Shown: positions 4,106 through 30,526 of the stretch, in pieces
Position numbering within the stretch: the stretch's first letter is position 1
Layout of the letters: each line of letters opens with the position of its first letter
NCBI GenBank assembly: GCA_021792365.1
Contig: JAJYUT010000005.1
Location: forward strand, 372,001-436,000
DNA length: 64,000 bases
Direction of reading: 5' to 3'
Origin: Pseudomonadota bacterium
Lineage (GTDB): Bacteria; Pseudomonadota; Alphaproteobacteria; Dongiales; Dongiaceae
Notes under the pieces: generated by a model
Told to the model about the DNA's origin: nothing
Seen by the model: only the letters and a program-made list of their open reading frames with translations
Databases searched by the model: none
Program-made: the position numbers and the translations under genes

Positions 4106-5161
4106 ATGAAGAGAACGAAAGATAAGAGCTTGCGGCGGTCAGGAAGCGTAGCGGTTGGCGCCTTGGCGCTGGCCGTGGCATTCAGTGCCGATGCAGAAGC
4201 GAAGACGGTGCTGAAGGTCTATACCGCGCTCGAAGAGGAGCACATGCCGATCTACGAGGAGGCGTTCGAGAAGGCCAATCCGGACATCGACATCCAGTGG
4301 CAGCGCGATTCGACCGGCGTCATTACCGCGCGCCTGCTGGCCGAAAAGGACAACCGCCAGGCCGACGTGGTCTGGGGCCTTGCCGCCACCAGCCTGATGC
4401 TGCTCGACAAGAACGGCATGCTTGACGCCTACAAGCCTCAGGGCTTCGACCAGATCAAGGACCAGTTCAAGGACACCCGCGCGGAAGGCCCGACCTGGGT
4501 CGGCATGGACGCCTGGGCGGCAGCCATCTGCTACAACACGGCAGAGGGCGAGAGGCTTGGCATCCCCGCGCCGGCGAGCTGGGCGGATCTCCTGAAGCCC
4601 GAATACAAGGGCCACATCGTGATGCCGAACCCGGGCTCGTCCGGCACCGGCTTCCTCACCGTCTCGGCCTGGCTGCAGCTGATGGGCGAGAAGGAAGGCT
4701 GGGGCTACATGGACAAGCTCCATGAGAACGTCAATTCGTACCTGCATTCCGGCTCCAAGCCGTGCAAGTCCGCCGCGGCGGGCGAGTACCTGATCGGCAT
4801 CTCCTTCGCGTATCCCGGCGTGGCGCTGATGAACGAGGGCGCGCCGGTGCAGGTGATCCTGCCCACGGAAGGCATCGGCTGGGACATGGAGGCGACGGCG
4901 ATCATGAAGGGCACGCCGCACCTGGAAGCCGCCAAGAAGGTGGCCGACTTCTCCGCCAGCGCCGAGGCGAACGCCCTGTATAACGAGTACTATCAGGTGC
5001 TCGCCCGCAAGGACGTCGCCGCCAAGGTTCCGGAGAACTATCCGGCAAACGAAGGCGATATGCTCATCAGCAACGACTTCTACTGGGCGGCCGCGAGCCG
5101 TGATGCCATCCTCGCCGAATGGCAGAAGCGCTACGGGTCGAAGGACGCGCCCAAGAGCTGA
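4106..5161 (+). CDS. phnS2: ABC transporter substrate-binding protein, 2-aminoethylphosphonate type
   Basis: A 351-residue periplasmic solute-binding protein with a Sec signal peptide (basic N-terminus, then a VAVGALALAVAF core, cleavage probably after ADAEA). The mature part closely resembles the putative 2-aminoethylphosphonate binding family (PhnS2/AepX type), including STGVITARLLAEKDN, WGLAATSLMLLDK and HSGSKPCKSAAAGEY. It is related to ferric-iron binding proteins, so iron remains a less likely alternative substrate. The ATG at 4106 follows GAGGAGGG by five bases; a nearby ATG at 4101 is out of frame. The ATPase and permease genes follow in order. No phosphonate-degrading gene is adjacent. 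Confidence 0.85.
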   Translation: MKRTKDKSLRRSGSVAVGALALAVAFSADAEAKTVLKVYTALEEEHMPIYEEAFEKANPDIDIQWQRDSTGVITARLLAEKDNRQADVVWGLAATSLMLLDKNGMLDAYKPQGFDQIKDQFKDTRAEGPTWVGMDAWAAAICYNTAEGERLGIPAPASWADLLKPEYKGHIVMPNPGSSGTGFLTVSAWLQLMGEKEGWGYMDKLHENVNSYLHSGSKPCKSAAAGEYLIGISFAYPGVALMNEGAPVQVILPTEGIGWDMEATAIMKGTPHLEAAKKVADFSASAEANALYNEYYQVLARKDVAAKVPENYPANEGDMLISNDFYWAAASRDAILAEWQKRYGSKDAPKS

Positions 5162-5191
5162 TCCGCTTGTGATAGAATAGCTTCGGCCGGT

Positions 5192-5222
5192 CCGCCTCCG
5201 ACGTTTCGCGCGTCGGAGGCGG
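5192..5222 (+). other. Intercistronic hairpin between binding-protein and ATPase genes
   Basis: A perfect 12-bp stem (CCGCCTCCGACG at 5192-5203 with its complement at 5211-5222) encloses a 7-base loop. No U-tract follows, so it is not a typical intrinsic terminator. Such hairpins in binding-protein operons often protect the upstream message, giving more binding protein than ATPase; that role is inferred here. Confidence 0.75.
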
Positions 5223-5253
5223 CGGTCGTTTGTGCGCGCGACTGGGGGAGGCG

Positions 5254-6360
5254 ATGGCAGTCGGGAACGGCAGACCCTATTTGAGCATCCGCAACGTCAA
5301 CAAGTTCTTCGGCGGCTTTCAGGCGCTGAAGGACGTGAGCCTGGACGTGTTCCCGGGGGAGTTCGTCTGCTTCCTGGGACCATCGGGCTGCGGCAAGACC
5401 ACCTTGCTGCGGGCCATCGCCGGCCTCGACATCCAGGACAATGGCAGCATCGCCCAGGCCGGCACCGATATCTCGGCCCTGCCGCCGTCGCGCCGTGACT
5501 ACGGCATCGTGTTTCAGTCCTATGCACTATTCCCCAATCTGACCGTGGCGGAGAACATCGCCTACGGCCTGGTCAATCTGGGCCGCGACAAGGCGGCGAT
5601 CCGTGCGCGCGTCGCGGAGCTCGTCGCGCTGGTCAGCCTGCGCGGCCAGGAATCAAAATACCCCGCCCAGCTCTCCGGCGGACAGCAGCAGCGCGTGGCG
5701 CTGGCCCGCGCCATCGCCATGTCGCCCGGCCTGCTGCTGCTGGATGAGCCGCTCTCGGCGCTGGATGCGCGGGTGCGCATCAACCTGCGCGGGGAGCTGA
5801 AGCATTTGCAGCGGCGGATCGGCGTGACCACGATCATGGTCACGCATGACCAGGAGGAAGCCCTGGCGGTCGCAGACCGCATCGTGGTCATGAATCACGG
5901 CGTGATCGAGCAGGTGGGCCGCCCCGACGAGGTCTACCGCAATCCCGCGACTGCCTTTGTCGCCGATTTCGTCGGTCACATGAACTTTCTCCCGGCCACC
6001 CGCGGCGATAGCGGCGTAGTCCGGGTCGGCGGCGTCGAATTGCGAGCCGACCTGGCGGGCGTGACGGCGTCCAGCGGCGGGGCCATCACGGTCTGCCTGC
6101 GTCCCGAGGACGTGCAGGTGCGCGGGCTCCAGCCGCAGCAGCCAAACGTCCTGCAGGCGGAGATCACGAGCCTGGAGTTCCTTGGCGCCTTCTGCCGCGC
6201 GGAGCTCCGTCTCGGCAGCGCGGAGGATCTCGGGCTTGCCGCCGATTTCTCGATCAACGCGATGCGTGACCTGGACCTGCGCATCGGCAAGATGATTCCC
6301 GTCGCGCTGCCGCCGGACCGCCTACGGGTGTTCGATGCGGAGGGTTCCGCTCATGGCTGA
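5254..6360 (+). CDS. phnT2: ABC transporter ATP-binding protein, 2-aminoethylphosphonate type
   Basis: A 368-residue importer ATPase. Walker A (GPSGCGKTT), Q-loop (FQSYALFPNL), signature (LSGGQQQR) and Walker B (LLLLDEPLSALD) are all intact. The C-terminal third is a TOBE-like regulatory region with LRPEDVQV. Sequence and context match the ATPase of putative 2-aminoethylphosphonate importers. The ATG at 5254 was preferred to a TTG at 5230 because GGGGGAG at 5244-5250 lies just before it and the encoded start aligns with the family, although the spacing is short. The gene follows the intercistronic hairpin and ends five bases before the permease gene. Confidence 0.87.
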   Translation: MAVGNGRPYLSIRNVNKFFGGFQALKDVSLDVFPGEFVCFLGPSGCGKTTLLRAIAGLDIQDNGSIAQAGTDISALPPSRRDYGIVFQSYALFPNLTVAENIAYGLVNLGRDKAAIRARVAELVALVSLRGQESKYPAQLSGGQQQRVALARAIAMSPGLLLLDEPLSALDARVRINLRGELKHLQRRIGVTTIMVTHDQEEALAVADRIVVMNHGVIEQVGRPDEVYRNPATAFVADFVGHMNFLPATRGDSGVVRVGGVELRADLAGVTASSGGAITVCLRPEDVQVRGLQPQQPNVLQAEITSLEFLGAFCRAELRLGSAEDLGLAADFSINAMRDLDLRIGKMIPVALPPDRLRVFDAEGSAHG

Positions 6361-18493: not shown

Positions 18494-18535
18494 CCGGCTT
18501 TTATGTTGATTTGATTGGGAATTTCAAGGCTTATG

Positions 18536-18577
18536 AGGGGTCGGGAAAGCCTGGGAACGCAAGGGGATCCGACCCTT
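18536..18577 (+). promoter_or_regulatory. Hairpin in the 5' leader of fhs
   Basis: The region from about 18530 to 18711 is non-coding and precedes fhs. It contains a 9-bp stem (18536-18544 with 18569-18577, one G-U pair) and a 24-base loop. I looked for the ZTP riboswitch core, which often precedes fhs, and did not find it. The role is unknown. Confidence 0.35.
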
Positions 18578-18711
18578 GGCGTACGGAATCTCGACAAGAT
18601 TCGTCGCGTTCAGACTTTCGAGTGCGGGGGAATCTCCATAGGCTTCACCGATTTTCGTGCGCGCCACGGCAGCGGCGCCAGGGGACAACACGTGCAGGGA
18701 GTAACAGGTCC

Positions 18712-20391
18712 ATGAACAAGAAGGTGGGCAGCGATATCGAAATCGCCCGCGAAGCGACCATGAAGCCGATCCGCGAGGTCGCAGCCAAGCTCGGCATTCC
18801 GGACGAGCATCTGCTGCCCTACGGCCATACCAAGGCCAAGATCTCGATGAAGTTGGTCGAATCCCTGCGGGACAAGCCGGACGGCAAGCTGATCCTCGTC
18901 ACCGCGATCAGCCCGACGCCGGCGGGCGAGGGCAAGACCACCACCACCGTTGGCTTGGGCGACGGGCTCAACCGCATCGGCAAGAAGGCGATCATCTGCC
19001 TGCGCGAGCCGAGCCTTGGCCCCTGCTTCGGCGTGAAGGGCGGCGCGGCCGGCGGCGGCTATGCGCAGGTCGTTCCGATGGAAGACATCAACCTGCACTT
19101 CACCGGCGACTTCCACGCCATCTCGACCGCGCACAACCTGCTCTCGGCGCTGATCGACAACCACATCTACTGGGGTAACGACCTCGGCTTCGACACGCGC
19201 CGCATCGCCTGGCGCCGCGTCATGGACATGAACGACCGCGCGCTGCGCTCGATCGTCAATTCTCTGGGCGGCACGCCGAACGGTTTCCCGCGCGAGGACG
19301 GCTTCGACATCACGGTCGCCTCGGAAGTGATGGCGATCTTCTGCCTGGCGCGCGACTTGAAGGACCTGACACAGCGCCTCGGCAGCATCATCGTCGGCTA
19401 CACGCGCGAAAAGAAGCCGATCTATGCGCGCGACCTCAAGGCCGAAGGCCCGATGACCGTGCTGCTGAAGGATGCGATCGCGCCCAACCTGGTGCAGACG
19501 CTGGAGAACAACGCCGCCTTCATTCATGGCGGCCCGTTCGCGAACATCGCTCATGGCTGCAACTCCGTGATTGCCACCACCACGGCCTTGAAACTCGCGG
19601 ACTACGTGGTGACGGAGGCGGGTTTCGGCGCGGATTTGGGCGCCGAGAAGTTCTTCGACATCAAGTGCCGCAAGGCCGGCCTGAAGCCGGCGGCAGCCGT
19701 CATCGTCGGTACCATCCGCGCCCTCAAGATGCATGGCGGCGTCGCCAAGGAGGACCTGGGCAAGGAGAACGTCGAGGCGCTGCGGAAGGGCGCCGCCAAC
19801 CTGGCCCGTCACATCGAGAACGTGAAGAAGTTCGGGGTGCCGCCGGTGGTGGCGATCAACCGCTTCGTGGCGGACACCGACGCGGAGCTGGACGCTGTCC
19901 GGCAGATCTGCGCCGAGCTGGGCGTAGAGGCCATCGAGTGCAACCACTGGGCGTACGGGTCTGCCGGTATCGAGAAGCTTGCCCACGCCGTGGTCAAGAT
20001 GACGGAGCAGAAGAGCAACTTCACTTATCTCTATCCGGACAACATGCCGCTGTGGGAGAAGGTTCGGACGATTGCCCAGAACCTCTACGGCGCGCAGGGC
20101 ATCATCGCCGACAAGGTGGTCCGCGACCGCTTCCACGAGCTGGAGAAGATGGGTTTCGCCAACTACCCGGTCTGCATGGCCAAGACCCAGTACAGCTTCT
20201 CGACCGATCCGAACCTCAAGGGCGCGCCCAGCAACCACGTGGTGCCGGTCCGCGAGGTGCGCCTGTCGGCCGGCGCGGAGTTCATCGTCGTCATCTGCGG
20301 CGAGATCATGACCATGCCGGGGCTGCCGCGCGTGCCCTCGGCGAACAGCATCAAGCTGAACGCCAAGGGCGAGGTCGAGGGCCTGTTCTGA
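18712..20391 (+). CDS. fhs: Formate-tetrahydrofolate ligase
   Basis: A 559-residue ATP-dependent ligase that joins formate to tetrahydrofolate to give 10-formyl-THF. The nucleotide-binding loop TPAGEGKT is at residues 69-76. The family blocks [21 protein letters not shown] and [17 protein letters not shown] are intact. The ATG at 18712 gives the normal family length and follows GGGAG; a longer in-frame version from 18511 would add 67 residues with no family match. A strong terminator follows and hutH begins 118 bases downstream. The neighbouring hut pathway releases formate through HutG, so this enzyme could recapture it. Confidence 0.95.
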
Positions 20392-20486: not shown

Positions 20487-20500
20487 CCTGTCTATACAAG
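20487..20500. promoter_or_regulatory. Probable HutC operator upstream of hutH
   Basis: The near-palindrome CCTGTCTATACAAG lies nine bases before the hutH start. It matches the sites upstream of hutC (CCTGTCTAGACAGG) and hutU (GTTGTATATACAAG), and the known HutC-type consensus of TGTA/TACA half-sites. I could not assign a clear promoter here. Confidence 0.65.
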
Positions 20501-20509
20501 AGAGACGCC

Positions 20510-22045
20510 ATGTCCGCCCGGGAGCTAGGGCAGCCGGCCGTGCTGCGCGATGCGGCGCCGCTGACCTGCGATGAGATCGCCGCGATCTCTCACGGCCGAG
20601 CGCGGCTGGCGATCGGCCCCGCGGCCCGCGCGAAGCTGGAGAACGGCCGCGCTATCGTCGCGCGCATCCTGGCGAGTGGCGAGCGCGCTTATGGCATCAC
20701 CACCGGCCTCGGCGCGCTGAGCGACGTCAAGCTGGCGCCGGACGAGTTGGCCCAGATCTCGCGCAACACGCTGCTCAGCCACGCCTGCGGGGTCGGCGAA
20801 CCGCTGCATGCCGCGGAAACGCGCGCCATCATGGTCGCGCTGGTCAATGACATGTGCCACGGCCATTCGGGCGTCAGCCCGGCTGTCGTCGATCAGCTTG
20901 TCGCGTTTCTCAATCATAGCATCAATCCGGTGGTGCCGAGCCAAGGCTCCGTCGGCTACATCGTGCATGGCGCGCATATCGGTCTGGCGCTGCTCGGCAT
21001 CGGCGAGGTGGACTATGCCGGCAGCCGCTTGCCGGCACGCGAAGCCATCGCGGCCGCTGGATTGCAGCCGATCGATGTCGGGCCGAAAGACGGCCTGTGC
21101 CTCGTCAATGGCACGCGCTGCCTCGCGGGCCTGTCCTGTCTCGGCGTGGTGGAAGCGGCGCGCATTGCCGATTGGGCGGACATCATCGCCGCTCTTTCGT
21201 TCGAGGCGTTGAAGGGCCAGGCCGACGCATTCGACGAGGAGGTGCTGAACCTCAAGCCGCATGCCGGCGTGGTCGCGGTCGGCAGGCGCCTGCGCAGCCT
21301 GCTCAAGGGCAGCGAAGTGATGGCGCATTTCCGTGGGCACCGCACGCAGGATGCGCTGTCGTTGCGCTCGATCCCGCAGGTGCATGGCGCGACGCGCGAC
21401 CAGTTGGAGCATGCCCGGCGGCAGATCGTGGTCGAACTCAAATCGGCGACCGACAACCCGCTGGTCATCGGCACGCCGGACTCCTATCGCGTCATCTCCA
21501 ACGCGCATCCGCACGGCCAGTCGGTGGCGATGGCGGTCGATCTGATGGCGCTCGCCGTGGCGGAGCTCGGCTCGATCGCGGAGCGGCGCATCGACCGTCT
21601 GCTCAATCCCGCGACCAGCGGATTGCCGGCTTTTCTGGTGAAGCAGCCGGGCGTCAATTCCGGGCTGATGATCGTGCAATACGTCGCGGCCTCTCTGGCG
21701 GCGGAGAACAAGCGTCTCAGCCAGCCGGCGGTCGCCGACAATTACGTGACCTCCGCCCAGCAGGAGGACCACATCAGCCTTGGCACCCCCGGCGCGCTCA
21801 AGGCGCTGAAGGTGATCGACAACACCCGGCGCATCCTGGCGATCGAGTATCTCTGCGCCGCCCAGGCCATCGAGTTCCTGCCCAGGCTCACGCTGGGCGA
21901 GGGCACCCGCGCCGCCTATGACCGGCTGCGCGGCCAAATTCCGGCACTGGAGCAGGACCGCTATCTGAGCCCGGATCTCGCGCTGATCGAGGCTCGGATG
22001 CTCGAGCCGGATTGGCTGGCCGATATCGAAGCACGCCTGAGATAG
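20510..22045 (+). CDS. hutH: Histidine ammonia-lyase homologue lacking the MIO-forming triad
   Basis: A 511-residue member of the histidine/phenylalanine ammonia-lyase family. Normal HutH makes urocanate and ammonia from histidine with an MIO cofactor formed from Ala-Ser-Gly in GSVGASGDLAP. Here the same place reads GSVGYIVHGAHIG (residues 146-158), so the triad is absent. The active-site tyrosine of the PYCLR segment is also missing (ALSLR, L283). Other family positions remain: YGITTG, LSHACGVG, LVNGT, Q280, R286 and QEDH. Both flanks stay in one frame, so a simple frameshift does not explain it. It may be a non-MIO lyase, a ligand-binding pseudoenzyme, or an inactive paralogue. It is preceded by a HutC-type operator. 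Confidence 0.8.
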   Translation: MSARELGQPAVLRDAAPLTCDEIAAISHGRARLAIGPAARAKLENGRAIVARILASGERAYGITTGLGALSDVKLAPDELAQISRNTLLSHACGVGEPLHAAETRAIMVALVNDMCHGHSGVSPAVVDQLVAFLNHSINPVVPSQGSVGYIVHGAHIGLALLGIGEVDYAGSRLPAREAIAAAGLQPIDVGPKDGLCLVNGTRCLAGLSCLGVVEAARIADWADIIAALSFEALKGQADAFDEEVLNLKPHAGVVAVGRRLRSLLKGSEVMAHFRGHRTQDALSLRSIPQVHGATRDQLEHARRQIVVELKSATDNPLVIGTPDSYRVISNAHPHGQSVAMAVDLMALAVAELGSIAERRIDRLLNPATSGLPAFLVKQPGVNSGLMIVQYVAASLAAENKRLSQPAVADNYVTSAQQEDHISLGTPGALKALKVIDNTRRILAIEYLCAAQAIEFLPRLTLGEGTRAAYDRLRGQIPALEQDRYLSPDLALIEARMLEPDWLADIEARLR

Positions 22046-22101: not shown

Positions 22102-23034
22102 ATGGAACAGGAAGCCTTGCATGTCGAGGCGGTGCGGCGCTTCTCCCGATTCTATACGCGGCGGATCGGGGTTCTGCAGGAGGGCTATAACGGGACCGAA
22201 CTCTCCCTGAGCGAGGCGCGGATCATCTACGAACTTGCGCGCCGCGAGGCGGCCACCGCGAGCGAACTGTCCCAGGAGCTGGGCCTCGATCCCGGCTATC
22301 TCAGCCGGATTCTCAAAGGCTTCCAGGAGCGGGGGCTCGTGCAGCGCCAGACCTCCGACGTCGATGCGCGGCGATACCTACTGAGCCTGACGGAACTCGG
22401 GGAACAGCGCTTCGCCGCGCTCAACGCGCGCTCGCGCAGCGACATGGCGCGTATGCTGAGCGCGCTCACGCCGCGCCAGCGGCGGCGCCTCATCGATGCG
22501 ATGAGCGAGATCGAAACCCTGCTATCGGCGGAGCCGGAACGCGGCGCGCCGTATATCCTGCGACCGCACCAGCCCGGCGACATCGGCTGGGCGGTGCAGA
22601 AGCATGGCGAGCTTTACGCGCGCGAATATGGCTGGGACGAGAGCTTCGAGGCGCTGGCGGCGGAGGTCGGCGCGCGATTCCTGAAGGAGTTCGATCCGAA
22701 GAAGGAGCGCGCCTGGATTGCGGAGAAGGACGGCGAGAATGTCGGCTGCGTGTTCCTCGTCAGGCAGTCCGACGAGGTCGCAAAGCTGCGCATGCTGCTG
22801 GTCGATCCGAAGGCACGGGGCCTTGGGCTTGGCAGGCGGCTGGTCGAGGAATGCATCCGCTTCGCGGGCAATCGCGGCTACCGGAAGATCACGTTGTGGA
22901 CCAACGACGTGCTGGTCACCGCCATCCACATCTACCGCACGCTCGGCTTCAGGCTGGTAGCGGAGGAGCGGCACCGCAGCTTCGGCCACGAACTGATAGG
23001 ACAAACGTGGGAGCTGGACCTTACAGCGCCTTGA
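22102..23034 (+). CDS. MarR-type regulator fused to a GNAT acetyltransferase
   Basis: A 310-residue two-domain protein. Residues 1-140 form a MarR winged helix (ELSQELGLDPGYLSRILKGFQERGLVQRQ, with the wing at SDVDARRYLLSLT). Residues about 155-310 form a GNAT domain with the acetyl-CoA loop RGLGLGRRL and the WTNDVLVTAIHIYRTLGF segment. Fusions of this kind are known in many bacteria, mostly uncharacterised. The ATG at 22102 follows GGAGG by five bases. It sits between hutH and hutC and overlaps the hutC 3' end by 14 bases, tail to tail. The acetylated substrate could be a metabolite or a protein. Confidence 0.85.
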   Translation: MEQEALHVEAVRRFSRFYTRRIGVLQEGYNGTELSLSEARIIYELARREAATASELSQELGLDPGYLSRILKGFQERGLVQRQTSDVDARRYLLSLTELGEQRFAALNARSRSDMARMLSALTPRQRRRLIDAMSEIETLLSAEPERGAPYILRPHQPGDIGWAVQKHGELYAREYGWDESFEALAAEVGARFLKEFDPKKERAWIAEKDGENVGCVFLVRQSDEVAKLRMLLVDPKARGLGLGRRLVEECIRFAGNRGYRKITLWTNDVLVTAIHIYRTLGFRLVAEERHRSFGHELIGQTWELDLTAP

Positions 23035-23734
23035 ATTTGCCGCGCAGGCGGTAGCGGCCGCCGGGATAGAGCAGGCGCACAAGGCTGACATGCCTGCCGT
23101 TCGACCAGGTGGTGCGCGTGAGGCAGAGACACGGCTCGTTGGGCTCGATCTTCAGCAGCTTGCGCTCGGCCGGCGTGGCGTGCAGCGCGTCGATGACATG
23201 TTCGGCCTCGGAGATCGGCGCCGTTGCCATCAGGTAGACATACGGCGTCTGGGTCGCGAAATCCTGGTCGAGATAATCCGGCGCCAAGGCCGGGACGACG
23301 TAGCGGTCCTCGATCTGCACCGGCACGTCATCTTCCGAATGCACCAGAACGGAGTGGAACACGGTCTCGCCGGTGCGCATGCCCAGCGCATGCGCCGTGT
23401 CGGCATTCGCCTTCTCTTTGCGCTGGGTGAGCACCTGCGCACTGTGGCGATGGCCGCGCGCGGCGATCTCGTCGGCGATGTTGCGCACCTCGAACAGGGC
23501 CGAGATCGGCTTCGGCTCGGCGACGAAGGTGCCGACGCCCTGCACGCGGATCAGGCGCCCGTCCAGCGTCAACTCGCGCAGGGCGCGGTTGATGGTCATG
23601 CGGCTGACCCCCAGGTCGCGCACCAGCTCCGATTCCGAGGGGATGCGGTGGCGCGGCTGCCACTCGCCGGAATCGATGCGGTCGGTGATCAAGCGCTTGA
23701 CGCGCGAGTAGCGGGGCAGGAGTTCGGTATTCAA
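23021..23734 (-). CDS. hutC: Histidine utilization repressor, GntR/HutC family
   Basis: A 237-residue repressor. The N-terminal GntR winged helix (residues 8-75) has RIPSESELVRDLGVSRMTI. The UTRA effector domain covers about 95-235; in known HutC it binds urocanate. The start is a TTG at 23734, since MNTELLPRYSRVKRLI matches the family start and no ATG fits. A 14-bp perfect palindrome lies 16 bases upstream, placed over the expected transcription start, so the gene probably represses itself. It is divergent from hutF. Confidence 0.92.
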   Translation of the reverse strand: MNTELLPRYSRVKRLITDRIDSGEWQPRHRIPSESELVRDLGVSRMTINRALRELTLDGRLIRVQGVGTFVAEPKPISALFEVRNIADEIAARGHRHSAQVLTQRKEKANADTAHALGMRTGETVFHSVLVHSEDDVPVQIEDRYVVPALAPDYLDQDFATQTPYVYLMATAPISEAEHVIDALHATPAERKLLKIEPNEPCLCLTRTTWSNGRHVSLVRLLYPGGRYRLRGKFKAL

Positions 23735-23834: not shown

Positions 23835-25199
23835 ATGAAGGTCCTTCACGCAAAGCTGGCTTGGCTCGCCGATGGCTGGCAATCGGACGTGCGCATCGCG
23901 ATCGATGAAAATGGGACGATCAAGGGACTCTCCCGTGGTGCGGCGCAGTCAGGCGATGAGCGCGCGCCGGGGCCCGTGCTGCCGGGCATGCCGAACCTGC
24001 ATTCCCACGCCTTCCAGCGCGCGATGGCGGGCCTCGCCGAAGAGGCGCTGAATCCCGAGGATAGTTTCTGGACCTGGCGCGAGTTGATGTATCGGCTGGT
24101 CGGCCGCCTGACCCCGGAGCAGGTGCAGGCGATCGCGACGCATCTCTATATCGAGATGCTGAAGGGCGGCTACACGGCGGTTGCGGAGTTCCACTACCTG
24201 CATCACCAGCCGGGCGGGGCGCCTTATGCCAATCCAGCGGAGATGGCGCAGCGCATTGCCACGGCGGCGGAGGCGTCCGGCATCGGCCTCACCTTGCTGC
24301 CGGCCTTCTATGCCCATGGCGGCTTCGGCGGCCAGCCGCTCGCGCCGAAGCAGCTCCGCTTCAAAAACGAGATCGACGGGTACCTGAAGCTGATCGAGGG
24401 CGTCGAGCGCGCCTGCGCGCAAATCGGCGCGGAGTGGGGCCTCTGCTTCCATTCGCTGCGCGCTGCGACCGAGGCGGAGATGAAGGCGGTGCTGGCCGCT
24501 CATCCGTCCGAGCGCCCGGTCCACATCCACATCGCCGAGCAGACCAAGGAGGTGGAGGATTGCCGCGCCTGGTCGAACCGCCGGCCCGTGGAGTGGCTCT
24601 ATGACAAGTTCGAGATAGATCGCCGCTGGTGCCTGATCCACGCAACCCATGTGAGCCCGGACGAGGTGCACATGATGGGCCACAGCGAGGCGGTGGTGGG
24701 GCTGTGCCCGACGACGGAAGCCAATCTCGGCGACGGCATCTTCCCGGCGCAGGAGTTCCTGGCTGCCAACGGTGCCTTCGGCATCGGGTCGGACTCGCAC
24801 GTCTCGGTCAGCGCGCTCGAAGAGCTGCGCTGGCTGGAATACGGCCAGCGCCTGAAGCACGAACGCCGCAACCGCCTCAGCGCCGGCAGCAGGCCGGAAG
24901 TGGCCGACACGCTCTACAACGCCGCGCTTCATGGCGGCGCTCAGGCGATGGGCAAGCATATCGGCGCGATCGCTCCCGGCAAGCGCGCGGACATCGTGGT
25001 GCTCGACGGCGCGCAGCCGATGCTCGCGAACGTCGCGCCGGCCAAGCTGCTCGGCCGCTGGCTGTTCGGCGGCAATGACGGCTGGGTGAAGGACGTGATG
25101 GTCGGTGGCCAGTGGGTGGTGAGGGATCGGCACCATGCGGGCGAAGAGGCCGCGCAGCGTGCATTCGCCGATGCGATGTCGGCTCTGATGGCCGCCTAA
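23835..25199 (+). CDS. hutF: Formimidoylglutamate deiminase
   Basis: A 454-residue amidohydrolase that converts N-formimidoyl-L-glutamate to N-formyl-L-glutamate and ammonia. The metal-binding start is NLHSHAF (H56, H58), followed by RAMAGLAE. Further metal or catalytic residues are in HIHIAEQ and LIHATHVS, and in GSDSHVS. HutF together with HutG marks the five-step histidine pathway, in contrast to the HutG-type formimidoylglutamase route. The gene is divergent from hutC across a shared operator. Its stop overlaps the hutG stop by a few bases, tail to tail. Confidence 0.93.
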   Translation: MKVLHAKLAWLADGWQSDVRIAIDENGTIKGLSRGAAQSGDERAPGPVLPGMPNLHSHAFQRAMAGLAEEALNPEDSFWTWRELMYRLVGRLTPEQVQAIATHLYIEMLKGGYTAVAEFHYLHHQPGGAPYANPAEMAQRIATAAEASGIGLTLLPAFYAHGGFGGQPLAPKQLRFKNEIDGYLKLIEGVERACAQIGAEWGLCFHSLRAATEAEMKAVLAAHPSERPVHIHIAEQTKEVEDCRAWSNRRPVEWLYDKFEIDRRWCLIHATHVSPDEVHMMGHSEAVVGLCPTTEANLGDGIFPAQEFLAANGAFGIGSDSHVSVSALEELRWLEYGQRLKHERRNRLSAGSRPEVADTLYNAALHGGAQAMGKHIGAIAPGKRADIVVLDGAQPMLANVAPAKLLGRWLFGGNDGWVKDVMVGGQWVVRDRHHAGEEAAQRAFADAMSALMAA

Positions 25200-25987
25200 G
25201 GCCGCCAGTCGATCATCGCCTGCACCATACGCTGCAGGACGGACTGCACCTTCTCTGCCGGTTCCGGGCGGTACTCGAACGGCGGCTGCTCGATCATGTA
25301 AGTGCGCTGCGCCAGTTCGAGTTGGACGGCATGCACGTTGCGGTCGGGCTGGCCGTAATGGCGCGCGATGTGGCCGCCCTTGAATCGACCGTTGACGACG
25401 CGGCGGCATCCGGGCGCGTCGCAGGCCTTGTCGACGGCCGCGCTCAGTGTGGGCGCGCAACTCCTGCCGTCATTGGTACCGATGTTGAAATCGGGCAGCG
25501 GCCCCTCGAACAGGCGCGGGATCTCGCCCCGGATCGAATGCGCGTCGAGCAGCACGGCATAGCCGAACGCGTCCTTGATGCGGTCAAGCTCCGCCCTCAG
25601 GCGCTCGTGATAGGGGCGCCAGATCCGCTCCTTGCAGATCGTCTTGATCTCCTCGCTGCGACTCCTGCCGGGCAGGAAAATCGACGTGCCATCGAACAGC
25701 GTCTCCGGAAAGAGGCCAGTGGTCGCGGTCTGATAGAGCGGCGTGTCATCCTCCGGCCGATTGAGGTCGATGGCAAAGCGCGAATAGCGCGCCGCCAGCA
25801 CGCTCGCGCCCATCTGTAACGCGAAGCCGTAGAGCTGCGGGATGTGCCAGTCGGTGTCGGGGAGGGCGCGCGCGTCCGGCGTCAACAGATCGGTGACCTC
25901 CGGCGGCAGCAGCAGCCCGGGATGCGGCATGGAGATCAGCAGCGGCGTATTGCCGTGCGTGAAGTCGTATGGTTGCTCGATATTCAT
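25196..25987 (-). CDS. hutG: N-formylglutamate deformylase
   Basis: A 263-residue member of the N-formylglutamate amidohydrolase family, which splits N-formylglutamate into glutamate and formate. Conserved segments include LLISMPHPG, SRFAIDLNRPEDD, LLDAHSIRG and GGHIARHYG. The ATG at 25987 was chosen over a longer frame from 26107 because the HutD stop and this ATG overlap as ATGA and MNIEQPYDF matches family starts. It is the last gene of the hutU-I-D-G operon. The formate it releases could feed fhs. Confidence 0.92.
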   Translation of the reverse strand: MNIEQPYDFTHGNTPLLISMPHPGLLLPPEVTDLLTPDARALPDTDWHIPQLYGFALQMGASVLAARYSRFAIDLNRPEDDTPLYQTATTGLFPETLFDGTSIFLPGRSRSEEIKTICKERIWRPYHERLRAELDRIKDAFGYAVLLDAHSIRGEIPRLFEGPLPDFNIGTNDGRSCAPTLSAAVDKACDAPGCRRVVNGRFKGGHIARHYGQPDRNVHAVQLELAQRTYMIEQPPFEYRPEPAEKVQSVLQRMVQAMIDWRP

Positions 25988-26568
25988 GCGGTGGCCATGG
26001 CGGAGGGAGTGATGGAGATAACTGCGACGACGGCATCGCTGAGCCCGCGCATCGTTGCGCGCCGCGGCTCCTCGGAGACCCAGCTGTCGCCTTCCACCAG
26101 GTTGCACGTCTCGTAGGTGTCCAGTTCTGCTGCGCCGCGCAGCACGTGCACGGCCGCCACATCCTCGCGCAACGGGGTGGTCGCCTTTGCGGTGAGTTGG
26201 AAGACCTGCAGCGTTCCCCGGCCGAAGCTGCGCCGGATCATGAAATTGAAGTCACGGATGGGGCCGCCGAGCAGGCGGCAGGTCGTCTTTGCGTCTCCGG
26301 AAAAGAACAGCGGCTCATGCAGCCGGTCCAGCCGCTTCGTGCCGCCCTCGATCGAAAGCTCCATGCCACTCCCTTCGACCACCATGATCCAGCGGTCGAT
26401 GCCGGCAAATTCCGAGAACGGTCCGTCGCTCGCCACATCGGCGATGCTGAGACGCCAGAGCATCTCGCCGGCGGAGGAGGTGACTTTCCAGATCTCGGTG
26501 GTTGTTCCGCCGCCATTCTTCCACGGCATGCTCTGGTAGTCGGTTCGGTGCAGGATGCGGCCGGTCAT
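25984..26568 (-). CDS. hutD: HutD family protein
   Basis: A 194-residue cupin-fold protein of the HutD/Ves family, with the typical start YQSMPWKNGGGTTTEIW. HutD is needed for good growth on histidine in Pseudomonas and has been proposed to act as a governor limiting hut activity; its biochemical function is not settled. The ATG at 26568 lies two bases after the hutI stop, and the stop overlaps the hutG start, so translation is probably coupled. Confidence 0.9.
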   Translation of the reverse strand: MTGRILHRTDYQSMPWKNGGGTTTEIWKVTSSAGEMLWRLSIADVASDGPFSEFAGIDRWIMVVEGSGMELSIEGGTKRLDRLHEPLFFSGDAKTTCRLLGGPIRDFNFMIRRSFGRGTLQVFQLTAKATTPLREDVAAVHVLRGAAELDTYETCNLVEGDSWVSEEPRRATMRGLSDAVVAVISITPSAMATA

Positions 26569-26570
26569 GC

Positions 26571-27791
26571 TCAGAATATGCGGCTGCGCCAGCGCCCCGC
26601 TCGCACGATACCTGCGCACGGATTGCCGCCGAGCCAATAGCTGAGCTCGGCGGGCCGGCCGATGTTCCAGATCGCGAGGTCGGCCGCGAAGCCGACACGC
26701 AGCTGCCCGTGCGTCTCGCCCATGCCGAGCGCAACAGCGGCATTCTTCGTAACGCCGGCCAGCGTTTCCTCGGGCGTCATGCGGAACAAGGTGCAGGCCA
26801 TGTTTATCATGAGCAGCAGCGAAAGGGCGGGGGAACTGCCGGGATTGCAGTCGGTCGAGATCGCGATGCGGACACCATGCTTGCGCAGCGTGTCGAGCGG
26901 CGGCAATTGCTTCTCGCGCAGGAAGAAGAACGCGCCGGGCAGCAGCACGGCGGCGGTGCCGGCCTTGCCCATCGCGGCGATGCCGGCTTCGGAACTGTAT
27001 TCGATGTGATCGGCCGAGAGCGCGTTGTAGCGTGCGGCGAGCGCCGCACCGCCCATGTCGGAGAGCTGATCGGCGTGGAGCTTCATGGGAAGGCCGAGGG
27101 ACTTCGCCGTGTCGAACACGCGCACCGTCTGCTCGGCCGTGAAGGCGATGCGCTCGGAAAAGGCATCGACGGCATCGGCCAAGTCCTCTGCGGCGATGGC
27201 AGGGAGGATGTCGTTGCAGACCAGATCGATGTATGCGTCGGGCCGGCCAGCGAACTCCGGCGGCAAGGCGTGAGCCGCCAGGCACGTCGTCTTCACCGTC
27301 ACGGCACAGTCCCGACCCAAGGCCCGAGCGACGCGCAACTGCTTGCGCTCGTTTTCGAGGTCCAGGCCGTAGCCCGACTTGATCTCGATGGTGGTCAGGC
27401 CTTCAGCCATCAATGATGTCAGGCGTGTCGTGGCCGCCGCCAGCAATTCCGCTTCGCTCGCCGCGCGGGTCGCGCGCACCGTGGAAACGATGCCGCCGCC
27501 TGCCTTGGCGATCTCCTCGTAAGTCGCACCTTTGAGCCGCTGCTCGAACTCACCGGCGCGCTCGCCGCCGAACACCAGATGGGTGTGGCAGTCGATCAGG
27601 CCGGGCGTGACCCAGCGGCCCTTCAGCGAAACCGTCTCCTTCACTGATTGTTGCGGCAGGTCGGCGCCCTTGCCGATCCACGCGATGCGGTCGCCCTCGA
27701 TCGCGATGGCGGCATCCTCGATCGCGCCATATCCCGCCGCCTCCGCCATGGTGGCGGCACGGCAATCGGTGAGGAGGAGATCCCAGGCCAT
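26571..27791 (-). CDS. hutI: Imidazolonepropionase
   Basis: A 406-residue amidohydrolase that opens imidazolone-5-propionate to N-formimidoyl-L-glutamate. The metal-binding motif is CHTHLVFGG (H69, H71), and downstream [12 protein letters not shown] and STDCNPG match the family. The length is typical. Its start codon overlaps the hutU stop by one base (TGATG), which implies translational coupling. It is the second gene of the hutU-I-D-G operon. Confidence 0.95.
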
Positions 27792-29461
27792 CAGCGATTG
27801 ATCATCGGCAGTTGCAAGCCTTGCTCGCGGGCGCAGGCGATCGCGTCATCATAACCTGCGTCGGCATGGCGCATCACGCCGGTGCCGGGATCGTTGGTGA
27901 GCACGCGCTCGATGCGCCGCGCGGCTTCGGGGGTGCCGTCGCAGCAGATCACCATGCCGGAATGCTGCGAGAAGCCCATGCCGACGCCGCCGCCATGGTG
28001 CAGGCTGACCCAGGTCGCACCCGACGCGCAGTTGAGCAGCGCGTTGAGCAGCGGCCAGTCGGAGACGGCATCGGAGCCGTCCTTCATCCCTTCCGTCTCG
28101 CGGTTCGGGCTGGCGACCGATCCCGAATCCAGGTGATCGCGGCCGATCACGATCGGCGCCTTGAGCTCGCCTCTCGCGACCATCTCGTTGAAGGCGAGGC
28201 CGAGCTTCGCACGCTCGCCCAGGCCCACCCAGCAGATGCGCGCCGGCAAGCCCTGAAAACTGATGCGCTGCTGCGCCATGTCGAGCCAGTTGTGCAGGTG
28301 CGGATTGTCGGGGATCAGCTCCTTCACCTTGGCATCGGTGCGGTGGATGTCCTCCGGCTCGCCCGACAGGGCTGCCCACCGGAACGGCCCCACGCCCCGG
28401 CAGAAGAGGGGACGGATGTAGGCGGGCACAAAACCGGGGAAATCGAACGCGTTGTCGACACCCGTTTCCTGCGCCATCTGGCGGATGTTGTTGCCGTAGT
28501 CGAAGGTCGGGATGCCGCGCTCGTGGAAGCCGAGCATGGCGCGCACCTGCACGGCCATGGAGTCCTTCGCGGCCTTCACCACCCCTTTTGGATCGCGCTG
28601 GCGCATGTCGACTGCCTGTGTGAGCGACCAGCCGGCCGGCAAGTAGCCGTTCAGCGGATCATGCGCGCTGGTCTGGTCCGTCACCATGTCCGGCCGCACG
28701 CCGCGCTTCAGGATTTCGGGAAAGATCTCCGCCGCGTTGCCGAGCAGGCCGACCGACACGGCCTTGCCGTCCTTCTTTGCGCGCTCGAGGATCGCGAGCG
28801 CTTCGTCGAGCGTGGAAGCCTTCGTGTCGAGATAGCGAGTCTCCAGGCGCCGCTCAATGCGTGACGGCTCGCATTCCACAGCGAGCATTGAGGCGCCGGC
28901 CATGGTCGCCGCCAGAGGCTGCGCGCCGCCCATGCCGCCTAGGCCGCCGGTCAGGATCCAGCGCCCCTTGAGATTGCCGCCGTAATGCTGGCGCCCGGCT
29001 TCTACGAAGGTCTCGTAGGTGCCCTGCACGATGCCCTGGCTGCCGATATAGATCCACGAGCCGGCCGTCATCTGGCCGTACATCATCAGGCCTTTGGCAT
29101 CGAGCTCGCGGAAATGCTCCCAGGTCGCCCAGTGCGGCACGAGGTTGGAGTTCGCGATCAGGACGCGCGGCGCATCCTCGTGGGTTCTGAAGACGCCGAC
29201 CGGCTTGCCGGACTGGATCAGCAGGGTCTCGTCCTCGCCCAGCGATTTCAGGCTTTCGACGATCCGGTCGTAGCATTCCCAGTTGCGCGCGGCGCGGCCG
29301 ATGCCGCCATAGACCACCAACTCGTTCGGGTTCTCGGCCACGTCGGGATCGAGATTGTTCATCAGCATGCGCAGCGGTGCCTCGGTCAGCCAGGATCTGG
29401 CGTTGAGGCTGGCGCCGCGGGGCGCGCGAATCACGCGGGCATTGAAGCGGGTTCCGGTCAT
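27791..29461 (-). CDS. hutU: Urocanate hydratase
   Basis: A 556-residue NAD+-dependent enzyme that converts urocanate to imidazolonepropionate. Family blocks include [11 protein letters not shown], the NAD-binding [13 protein letters not shown], and [17 protein letters not shown] near the end. The ATG at 29461 begins [14 protein letters not shown], which fits the family; a TTG at 29479 is less likely because it would lie next to the operator. It is the first gene of the operon, behind a clear promoter and operator. Confidence 0.96.
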
Positions 29462-29479
29462 GGGGCGGTCTCGATCCAA

Positions 29480-29493
29480 GTTGTATATACAAG
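29480..29493. promoter_or_regulatory. HutC operator upstream of hutU
   Basis: GTTGTATATACAAG contains a perfect 12-bp palindrome (TTGTATATACAA). On the minus strand it follows directly after the -10 of the hutU promoter, over the expected transcription start. Confidence 0.75.
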
Positions 29494-29522
29494 TCTATAC
29501 TGCACGATTCTGACCGGCTCAA
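29494..29522 (-). promoter_or_regulatory. Probable hutU-I-D-G promoter
   Basis: On the minus strand TTGAGC (29522-29517) and TATAGA (29499-29494) are separated by 17 bp. The operator at 29493-29480 follows directly. Confidence 0.7.
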
Positions 29523-29608
29523 GGTCGTTCAAGGGGCAATGTCGGTGGCCCGCTAGCGGCGGCGCGGAGTCTCGGTTAACGTCCGCCGGCCTCATCGGGG
29601 AGTTTGAA

Positions 29609-30526
29609 ATGGTCGCGGCGGCGAGGTCCAGCGGATATCGAAGCCGTTATCTTTGGGGCGTCGCCTGCTGCTGCCTTGCGACCCTGGGCTGGAGCCTGAG
29701 CGGGCTGTTCGTCCGCTGGGTGCCGGAGTTGGACGGCTGGGGCATCAACGGCTATCGCGCCCCGGCGACCGCGATCTGCCTGCTGATCTATCTGGCCCTG
29801 CGCTACCGGGGCGAGCTTGGCCGCCATTTCTGGCCGAAGCCGCCGCAGGCCCTGCTTGCCGTGGGGATATTCTTCGGTGTCGGCTCGACGCTTTATGTCT
29901 ACGCCTTGACCATGGGCACGGTGGCGAGCGTTTCCGTCCTCGGCGCTACCAGCCCGTTCTTCGCGGCCCTGCTGGCGTGGCTGGTCATGCGCGAGCGGGC
30001 CTCGGCCGTGTCGCTCGCCGCGATCGTTGTTGCGCTCATCGGCGTTGCGGTCGTCGTCCAGGCGGAGATGTCGGCGCTGGCGACGGGCTTCGCCGCGGCG
30101 GTCATTTCCCTGGGCTACGCCTTCTGCTTTGCCGGCCAGACGGTCTGGCTCAGGCGCTATCGCGACCTGGAGTTGGTCCCCGGCATCGCCCTCGGCGGCC
30201 TCATGGTGTTCGCCTTCGTTGTGCTCTTTGTCGGCCTTCCGCCCTTGCCCCTCTGGCAGATCGGCCTGCTGGCGCTGATGGGCCTGGTCCAATTGGCGTT
30301 GCCGTTGATCATGTTCGCGGAAGGCGCCAAGCATGTGCCGGTTGTGCCGGCGATGCTGATCGCCCTGGCGGATGTGGTCCTGAATCCGCTCTGGGTCTGG
30401 CTGGTGCATGGCGAGCAACCGTCGGCTGGAACGATCGGGGGCGGCGCGCTGATCCTGTCCGCGATCATCGGCGCGACCCTCTACGAGAACCGCCGGCAGC
30501 GCGGCGCAGCCCAGCAGGAGGCCTGA
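29609..30526 (+). CDS. DMT superfamily transporter, EamA family
   Basis: A 305-residue inner-membrane protein with ten predicted membrane segments in two EamA halves (residues about 14-145 and 155-295). EamA proteins export amino acids or other metabolites; the substrate here is unknown. The ATG at 29609 follows GGGGAG at 29597-29602 by six bases. It is divergent from hutU and is followed two bases later by a small unknown gene with a good ribosome binding site. A role in histidine overflow is only suggested by position. Confidence 0.87.
   Translation: MVAAARSSGYRSRYLWGVACCCLATLGWSLSGLFVRWVPELDGWGINGYRAPATAICLLIYLALRYRGELGRHFWPKPPQALLAVGIFFGVGSTLYVYALTMGTVASVSVLGATSPFFAALLAWLVMRERASAVSLAAIVVALIGVAVVVQAEMSALATGFAAAVISLGYAFCFAGQTVWLRRYRDLELVPGIALGGLMVFAFVVLFVGLPPLPLWQIGLLALMGLVQLALPLIMFAEGAKHVPVVPAMLIALADVVLNPLWVWLVHGEQPSAGTIGGGALILSAIIGATLYENRRQRGAAQQEA

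Follow-up and report, generated by a model that had tools for sequence, protein, structure and literature searches.

MIO-less HutH homologues linked to hut genes form a proteobacterial clade of candidate hercynine trimethylamine-lyases

In histidine ammonia-lyase (HAL, HutH) the methylidene-imidazolone (MIO) cofactor makes ammonium a leaving group. Two described systems come close to the gene treated here. PMC13405746 presents ergothionase as a known homologue of HAL that lacks MIO and frees trimethylamine, and PMC8871633 gives the order hutU, hutTu, hutXWV, hutH1, hutH for Pseudomonas fluorescens SBW25. We analysed a stretch of 64,000 nucleotides from a Dongiaceae alphaproteobacterium (contig JAJYUT010000005.1; hereafter the window, its genome G000) which carries a hutH-like gene, here called HutHx, in a hut cluster. 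Judged from its sequence and relatives, the encoded protein is probably an active lyase that belongs to the HutH1 clade and does without MIO, and its most likely reaction would be the conversion of hercynine to urocanate and trimethylamine. The gene and its altered loop are located as follows.

20510..22045, plus strand: MIO-less HutH homologue (HutH1-type, "HutHx"), a 511-aa open frame with no internal stop
20945..20983, plus strand: codons of residues 146-158, GSVGYIVHGAHIG, where the MIO loop would be, as read from the translated frame

An earlier note on this DNA, made from the sequence alone, had claimed that the MIO triad is missing, that the tyrosine of the PYCLR segment is replaced and that the motifs YGITTG, LSHACGVG, LVNGT and QEDH are retained, and all of this was borne out. 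GSVGYIVHG stands where GSVGASGD is expected, and the Ala-Ser-Gly triad that gives rise to MIO is absent. In the alignment the loop is also three residues shorter than in MIO enzymes, L283 takes the place of P. putida HAL Tyr280, the tyrosine by which a histidase is recognised, and P334 that of Phe329. Because the defining triad is missing, HutHx of the window is not a histidase of known kind. It nonetheless matches the Pfam family PF00221 with 550.6 bits, and its score with the NCBIfam hutH equivalog, 540.1 bits, lies one bit above the cut-off of 539.15; such a profile score does not require the triad as such. An AlphaFold model built from 20 clade sequences reached a mean predicted local distance difference test score of 89.7 and a predicted template modelling (TM) score of 0.90. 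HALs were its top matches in the PDB, at TM 0.88-0.89; ergothionase 6s7j came fifteenth (TM 0.84). The ratio of nonsynonymous to synonymous substitution rates (dN/dS) was 0.066 and 0.089 against the close relatives L005 and L006; it rose to 0.313 against L007, which is less closely related (dS 0.95). Sequencing error and pseudogene formation were ruled out by these ratios together with the clade alignment and tree described below, and the gene encodes an intact HAL-fold protein without the MIO triad, the product of neither error nor decay.

The YIVHG segment, which the earlier note wished to see compared among homologues, proved to be conserved rather than random. In an alignment of 96 rows (93 from loci and three PDB sequences, identical and contained rows removed), 33 rows including the window gene carry GS[VA]GY[LI][TVS]H, the loop pattern by which the HutHx label was set. 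A single branch separates these 33 rows from all the others (Shimodaira-Hasegawa-like approximate likelihood ratio support 100). Features outside the label agree: all 33 have Leu at HAL position 280 and Pro or Ala at position 329. The clade was recovered with support 99 for its 17 sampled rows in a tree from which the loop and positions 280 and 329 had been blanked; this tree held 56 of the 96 rows, namely half of the MIO and HutHx rows, taken alternately, two PDB HALs and all ergothionase-like rows other than L058 and L074, which were omitted as long branches. Y53, H83, N195, Q277, R283 and E414 (HAL numbers) are kept in every HutHx row, and H83 and E414 are residues that we take to bind the imidazole in HAL. 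Tyr280 occurs in all 46 rows with the MIO triad, and the 50 rows without MIO have Leu (47 rows), Ile, Val or Tyr (one each) at this position, ergothionase 6s7j being among those without Tyr280. The absence of MIO thus goes with the absence of Tyr280. The sole MIO-less row with the tyrosine is L058 (G077:C1:3171574-3172947, reading GSVGYLGPEGHL), a long branch that adjoins the HutHx clade with support 88. In a clade of their own, the seven MIO enzymes L059-L065 have Gln in place of E414 and HGGHFYG in place of GGNFHAE. In the blanked tree a branch with support 73 groups HutHx with the ergothionase-like rows, a value that neither shows nor rejects a common origin of the two MIO-less groups, and the claim that MIO was lost twice was dropped.

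HutHx is not confined to one genome: the family occurs across proteobacterial lineages and is filed as histidase. A profile made from eight members detected HutHx in 8 of the 17 genomes of the window's family, where scores dropped from 815 to 448 bits between the clade and the next PF00221 genes. Among 398 genomes sampled from the phylum, 23 had a match at E 1e-145 or better. It spans alpha-, beta- and gammaproteobacterial lineages, examples being Dongia, Rhizobium, Burkholderia and Erwinia. A canonical MIO HAL is present in 28 of the 29 HutHx genomes for which all PF00221 genes were listed. In the remaining one (G323) no canonical HAL was found, and the only MIO type found there is a different one with Gln at E414.

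Hut genes are visible in 22 of 29 distinct long HutHx loci (24 in the main set and L092-L096). HutHx stands with hutU, hutI, hutF and hutG on a plasmid in L009 and in the operon of L018, and a canonical hutH was not in view in either of these stretches. Carriers were counted when they lay directly upstream of HutHx on the same strand. An ATP-binding cassette (ABC) system of OpuAC type, that is of glycine-betaine type, was found in six of the 29 loci (L012, L013, L019, L020, L031, L096) and a BCCT betaine carrier in three (L022, L023, L092); in L009, which has no carrier directly upstream, the hut operon ends with an OpuAC system. The OpuAC assignments in L009, L012, L013, L019 and L020 and those of BCCT in L022 and L023 were confirmed with Pfam, as were the amino-acid-type SBP_bac_3 carriers, discussed below, of L008, L010, L011, L014 and L016; the remaining carrier calls come from tblastn. 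Among 15 control loci with canonical hutH not beside HutHx (L028, L029, L098-L110), none showed OpuAC or BCCT and one (L103) an amino-acid-type system; several gave weak ATPase-only matches, and an SBP_bac_8 gene lies near L029. In L013, L019, L020, L092, L096 and others a canonical hutH shares the operon with HutHx, so that the same carriers are near it. Within L023 a second MIO-less homologue (4558-6012, minus strand, GSLGAADLAQLAQ), whose best PDB match is ergothionase (265 bits), has a gene for an OpuAC binding protein as neighbour and lies beside the hut cluster to which HutHx and its BCCT carrier belong.

The association with betaine carriers was followed through 119 genomes of Pseudomonadaceae, 31 of which have HutHx. 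HutX, the OpuAC protein, occurs at 77% identity or more in 26 genomes, and all 26 have HutHx on the same strand at a distance of 1763-2140 bases, the cut at 77% having been chosen after the scores were seen. At E 1e-80 HutX is found in 42 genomes including these 26; in nine it has 65-67% identity, three of which have HutHx unlinked to it, and the rest of the 42 score lower, apart from four between 69 and 75% that are taken up below. The other five HutHx genes of the family have SBP_bac_3 (G371, G482, G503, G497) or BCCT (G495), and a carrier thus stands upstream in 31 of 31 cases, in 27 of them from a betaine-carrier family.

In the window, the claims of the earlier note that a HutC-type operator precedes the gene and that a hut cluster surrounds it also held. 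The hut genes listed here were called by tblastn against annotated hut genes.

20487..20500, strand not assigned: HutC-like operator CCTGTCTATACAAG directly before the HutHx gene, 2 mismatches to CTTGTATATACAAG
29480..29493, strand not assigned: HutC-like operator GTTGTATATACAAG before hutU, 1 mismatch
18511..20391, plus strand: putative formate-tetrahydrofolate ligase, fhs-like, next upstream of HutHx in the window, L005 and L006
22087..23034, plus strand: MarR-GNAT fusion gene between HutHx and hutC, present in L005 and L006 too
23021..23734, minus strand: hutC-like repressor gene, tblastn only
23835..25199, plus strand: hutF, formiminoglutamate deiminase, about 54% between the window and annotated copies
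25196..26107, minus strand: hutG, N-formylglutamate deformylase, start possibly at about 26068
25984..26568, minus strand: hutD, start placed by eye inside a longer frame
26571..27791, minus strand: hutI, imidazolonepropionase
27791..29461, minus strand: hutU, urocanate hydratase, tblastn and profile

HutU of the window scored 992 bits with the hutU model and 718 bits with the thiourocanate hydratase model, below the cut-off of 930 of the latter, which identifies it as a urocanate hydratase by profile. Divergent from hutU lies a frame (28985-30526, plus strand) whose later part resembles an EamA/DMT carrier, as named by eye. A scan of the window at up to 3 mismatches gave the two operator sites against 0.26 expected, and 2 of 100 shuffles reached two; with 200 permuted palindromes at up to 2 mismatches the mean was 0.045 sites and two were never reached. 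Sites with up to 2 mismatches also precede HutHx in L005, L006, L007, L024, L025 and L026, and between -500 and +100 of the first gene they occur in 13 of 28 HutHx modules scanned, L007, L024 and L025 having the site though no hut gene is nearby.

The genome of the window encodes four PF00221 genes by profile search. The earlier note had proposed a search for a second HutH with GSVGASGD, and two copies with a triad of this type were found elsewhere in G000, L001 (GSVGASGDLTPLAH) and L002 (GSVGASGDLAPLAH), which rules out HutHx as the sole HutH of this genome. L001 lies on another contig next to a second, diverged hutU (a urocanate hydratase by model, 776 bits), hutC and hutI. A perfect CTTGTATATACAAG stands upstream of L002, around which no hut genes were seen in the 19-kb stretch examined (L029). 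HutC-like sites precede L002, HutHx and hutU, and by sequence the HutC regulon of this genome would thus take in one true histidase, HutHx and the operon for urocanate breakdown. The fourth gene, L004 (G000:C9:756128-757603; stretch L030), reads ASVGESDLAPCSH and groups with the ergothionase-containing rows; a scan of its neighbours covered 6 frames of L030 and 2 of L029, few of them informative. Just downstream of L004, on the opposite strand, lies a gene of the ornithine-cyclodeaminase family. A second hut-like cluster, L028 (G000:C10), holds M20 peptidases, HutC, a MIO HutH, a diverged HutI and a HutU 56% identical to that of the window, and perhaps serves a histidine-containing peptide or derivative.

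For the clade as a whole, we consider it somewhat better than an even chance that its members are MIO-independent hercynine trimethylamine-lyases distinct from ergothionase, through which histidine betaine would enter the hut pathway by a second route, with OpuAC and BCCT carriers recruited for it in several lineages. Hercynine (N-alpha-trimethylhistidine, histidine betaine) is proposed as the substrate because it fits the loss of MIO and Tyr280 shared with ergothionase, the imidazole residues, the betaine carriers and the linkage to urocanate hydratase. The beta proton would be taken off by active-site apparatus that HAL also uses, trimethylamine would be expelled, and the resulting urocanate would pass to glutamate via HutU, HutI, HutF and HutG. 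By a leaving-group argument of our own, MIO would be dispensable because trimethylammonium already leaves readily, as in ergothionase. HutC would repress the HutHx gene and urocanate, the product, would relieve the repression, with histidine itself left to L001 and L002, the MIO histidases of the same genome. Observed are the conserved active site of the clade, its ties to hut genes and carriers and the operator-like sites; the activity, the substrate, the release of trimethylamine and the regulation are inferred from these. No report of a hercynine lyase, or of a HutH1 without MIO, was found among the openly licensed PMC papers covered, so that an earlier description elsewhere is possible.

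Since ergothionase itself lacks MIO and, like HutHx, has Leu for Tyr280, HutHx might be an ergothionase, or might act on oxidised or methylated ergothioneine to give thiourocanate or a relative. PMC13276445 adds that deletion of a hutH, which may or may not be of the MIO type, slowed the loss of ergothioneine in Vibrio natriegens. However, 6s7j groups with 14 other ergothionase-like rows and HutHx stands apart (support 97; 100 in the blanked tree), the loop differs, and the HutU of the window is made for urocanate rather than thiourocanate. Thiourocanate hydratase also adjoins other paralogues. It exceeds its cut-off in three of the 29 HutHx genomes (G058, G122, G268), lying 4.4-4.7 kb from a TGSIGCADIG-type paralogue; paralogues of this type fall beside 6s7j (support 93, an unsure join with long branches). 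Among 200 genomes of the family of G337, seven have thiourocanate hydratase above cut-off, 38 have HutHx and five have both. In three of the five the two genes are on different contigs, and in the others the distance is about 264 kb and 2.1 Mb. In five of the seven stretches around the hydratase, a gene of SIGEADI or SLGEADI type lies about 1.5 kb from it, has 35-36% identity to 6s7j and shares the key residues of 6s7j; the stretches of G674 and G680 gave no PF00221-type match. In none of the 29 HutHx genomes or the stretches from the family of G337 does HutHx stand beside the hydratase. Because the hydratase neighbours other paralogues and not HutHx, true ergothionase systems appear to exist apart from the HutHx clade, and we give the ergothionase explanation little credence, the survey of the family of G337 having made it somewhat less likely still. 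L112-L116, L119 and L120 are probable ergothioneine-degrading clusters, with thiourocanate hydratase and a SIGEADI- or TGSIGCADIG-type homologue.

Several observations weigh against hercynine as the substrate. Hut genes were not seen in 7 of the 29 loci within the stretch examined. Directly upstream of HutHx, an amino-acid-type SBP_bac_3 ABC system lies in 11 of 29 (L008, L010, L011, L014-L018, L093-L095), and no carrier adjoins in nine (the window, L005, L006, L007, L009, L021, L024, L025, L026). HutX occurs without HutHx at 75% identity in G423 and at 69-70% in three further genomes, the genomes of one family are not independent, and HutXWV has been described as a histidine transporter. A Fisher value for the link between HutX and HutHx was set aside, as it takes no account of relatedness. 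The pocket of ergothionase also differs, with Ser at N195 and Lys at HAL V386 where HutHx has Asn and Tyr391. The amino-acid-type carriers, together with the hut linkage and the true urocanate hydratase, would suit a MIO-independent lyase that forms urocanate from another histidine derivative such as mono- or dimethylhistidine or imidazole lactate. We hold this to be unlikely, as the BCCT and OpuAC carriers in nine of the 29 loci point to a quaternary amine and, on chemical grounds, hydroxide or a secondary amine would leave less readily without MIO. The earlier note had offered a cofactor-free lyase, a sensor of histidine or urocanate, or a partner of a true HutH. The lyase is favoured by the evidence, although the note did not arrive at the likely kind of substrate, the relation to HutH1 of Pseudomonas or the betaine carriers, and the other two ideas gained no positive support. 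A catalytically dead relative that senses these compounds or associates with true HutH would account for the missing MIO and for the canonical enzyme in 28 of 29 genomes, but it is quite improbable given the catalytic residues kept in 33 of 33 rows, the own carrier with which HutHx travels in Pseudomonadaceae and the genome G323, in which HutHx occurs and canonical HAL was not found. That HutHx is a histidase which manages without MIO would agree with the hut linkage, the retained fold and the imidazole-binding residues; it seems barely credible, as ammonium without MIO is chemically a poor leaving group and a MIO HutH has been retained in 28 of the 29 HutHx genomes.

Hercynine lyase activity of the HutHx clade, if real, would expose a mis-annotation, as the four plasmid copies of HutHx inspected are all filed as hutH, and would add a route by which bacteria degrade hercynine, the betaine from which ergothioneine is made, and set trimethylamine free. 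It would also provide a natural case of a single fold that can be compared in its MIO-bearing and MIO-free forms, the need for the cofactor depending on the leaving group.

Compared with HAL (P. putida 1b8f and Thermoplasma acidophilum 7tqr), HutHx has the same PF00221 fold at 36-37% identity in the structural match, and hut operons, HutC-like sites and the catalytic and imidazole residues are common to both. Unlike HAL, it lacks Ala-Ser-Gly, its loop is three residues shorter, Tyr280 is replaced by Leu and Phe329 by Pro or Ala. The link to HutH1 comes from L013, in which hutF, hutC, hutD, hutU, a cytosine-permease-like carrier, an OpuAC protein, a permease and an ATPase precede HutHx, and canonical hutH, an amino-acid permease, hutI and hutG follow it. 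In the tree the MIO-less gene of L013 sits in the HutHx clade and the canonical HutH of its genome groups with P. putida HAL. Because this gene order fits the layout of SBW25, the HutHx clade matches HutH1 of P. fluorescens, the two being equated by operon layout only and not by sequence. Unlike hutH1 of SBW25, the HutHx gene of the window is preceded by an operator-like site of its own, and no carrier adjoins it. PA5093 of PAO1 is presumably an ammonia-lyase-like gene, for which a hutG label may be a slip. PMC12772324 gives PA5093 as hutG of this strain. Ergothionase of Treponema denticola (6s7j, 6s7q) shares with HutHx the HAL fold without MIO and Leu at position 280, and its elimination of trimethylamine is the chemistry proposed here for HutHx. 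It differs in its loop (SSIGEGDITTLSH in 6s7j), in its separate clade and in the linkage of its relatives to thiourocanate hydratase. We think that HutHx works in the manner of ergothionase, though it does not belong to that family.
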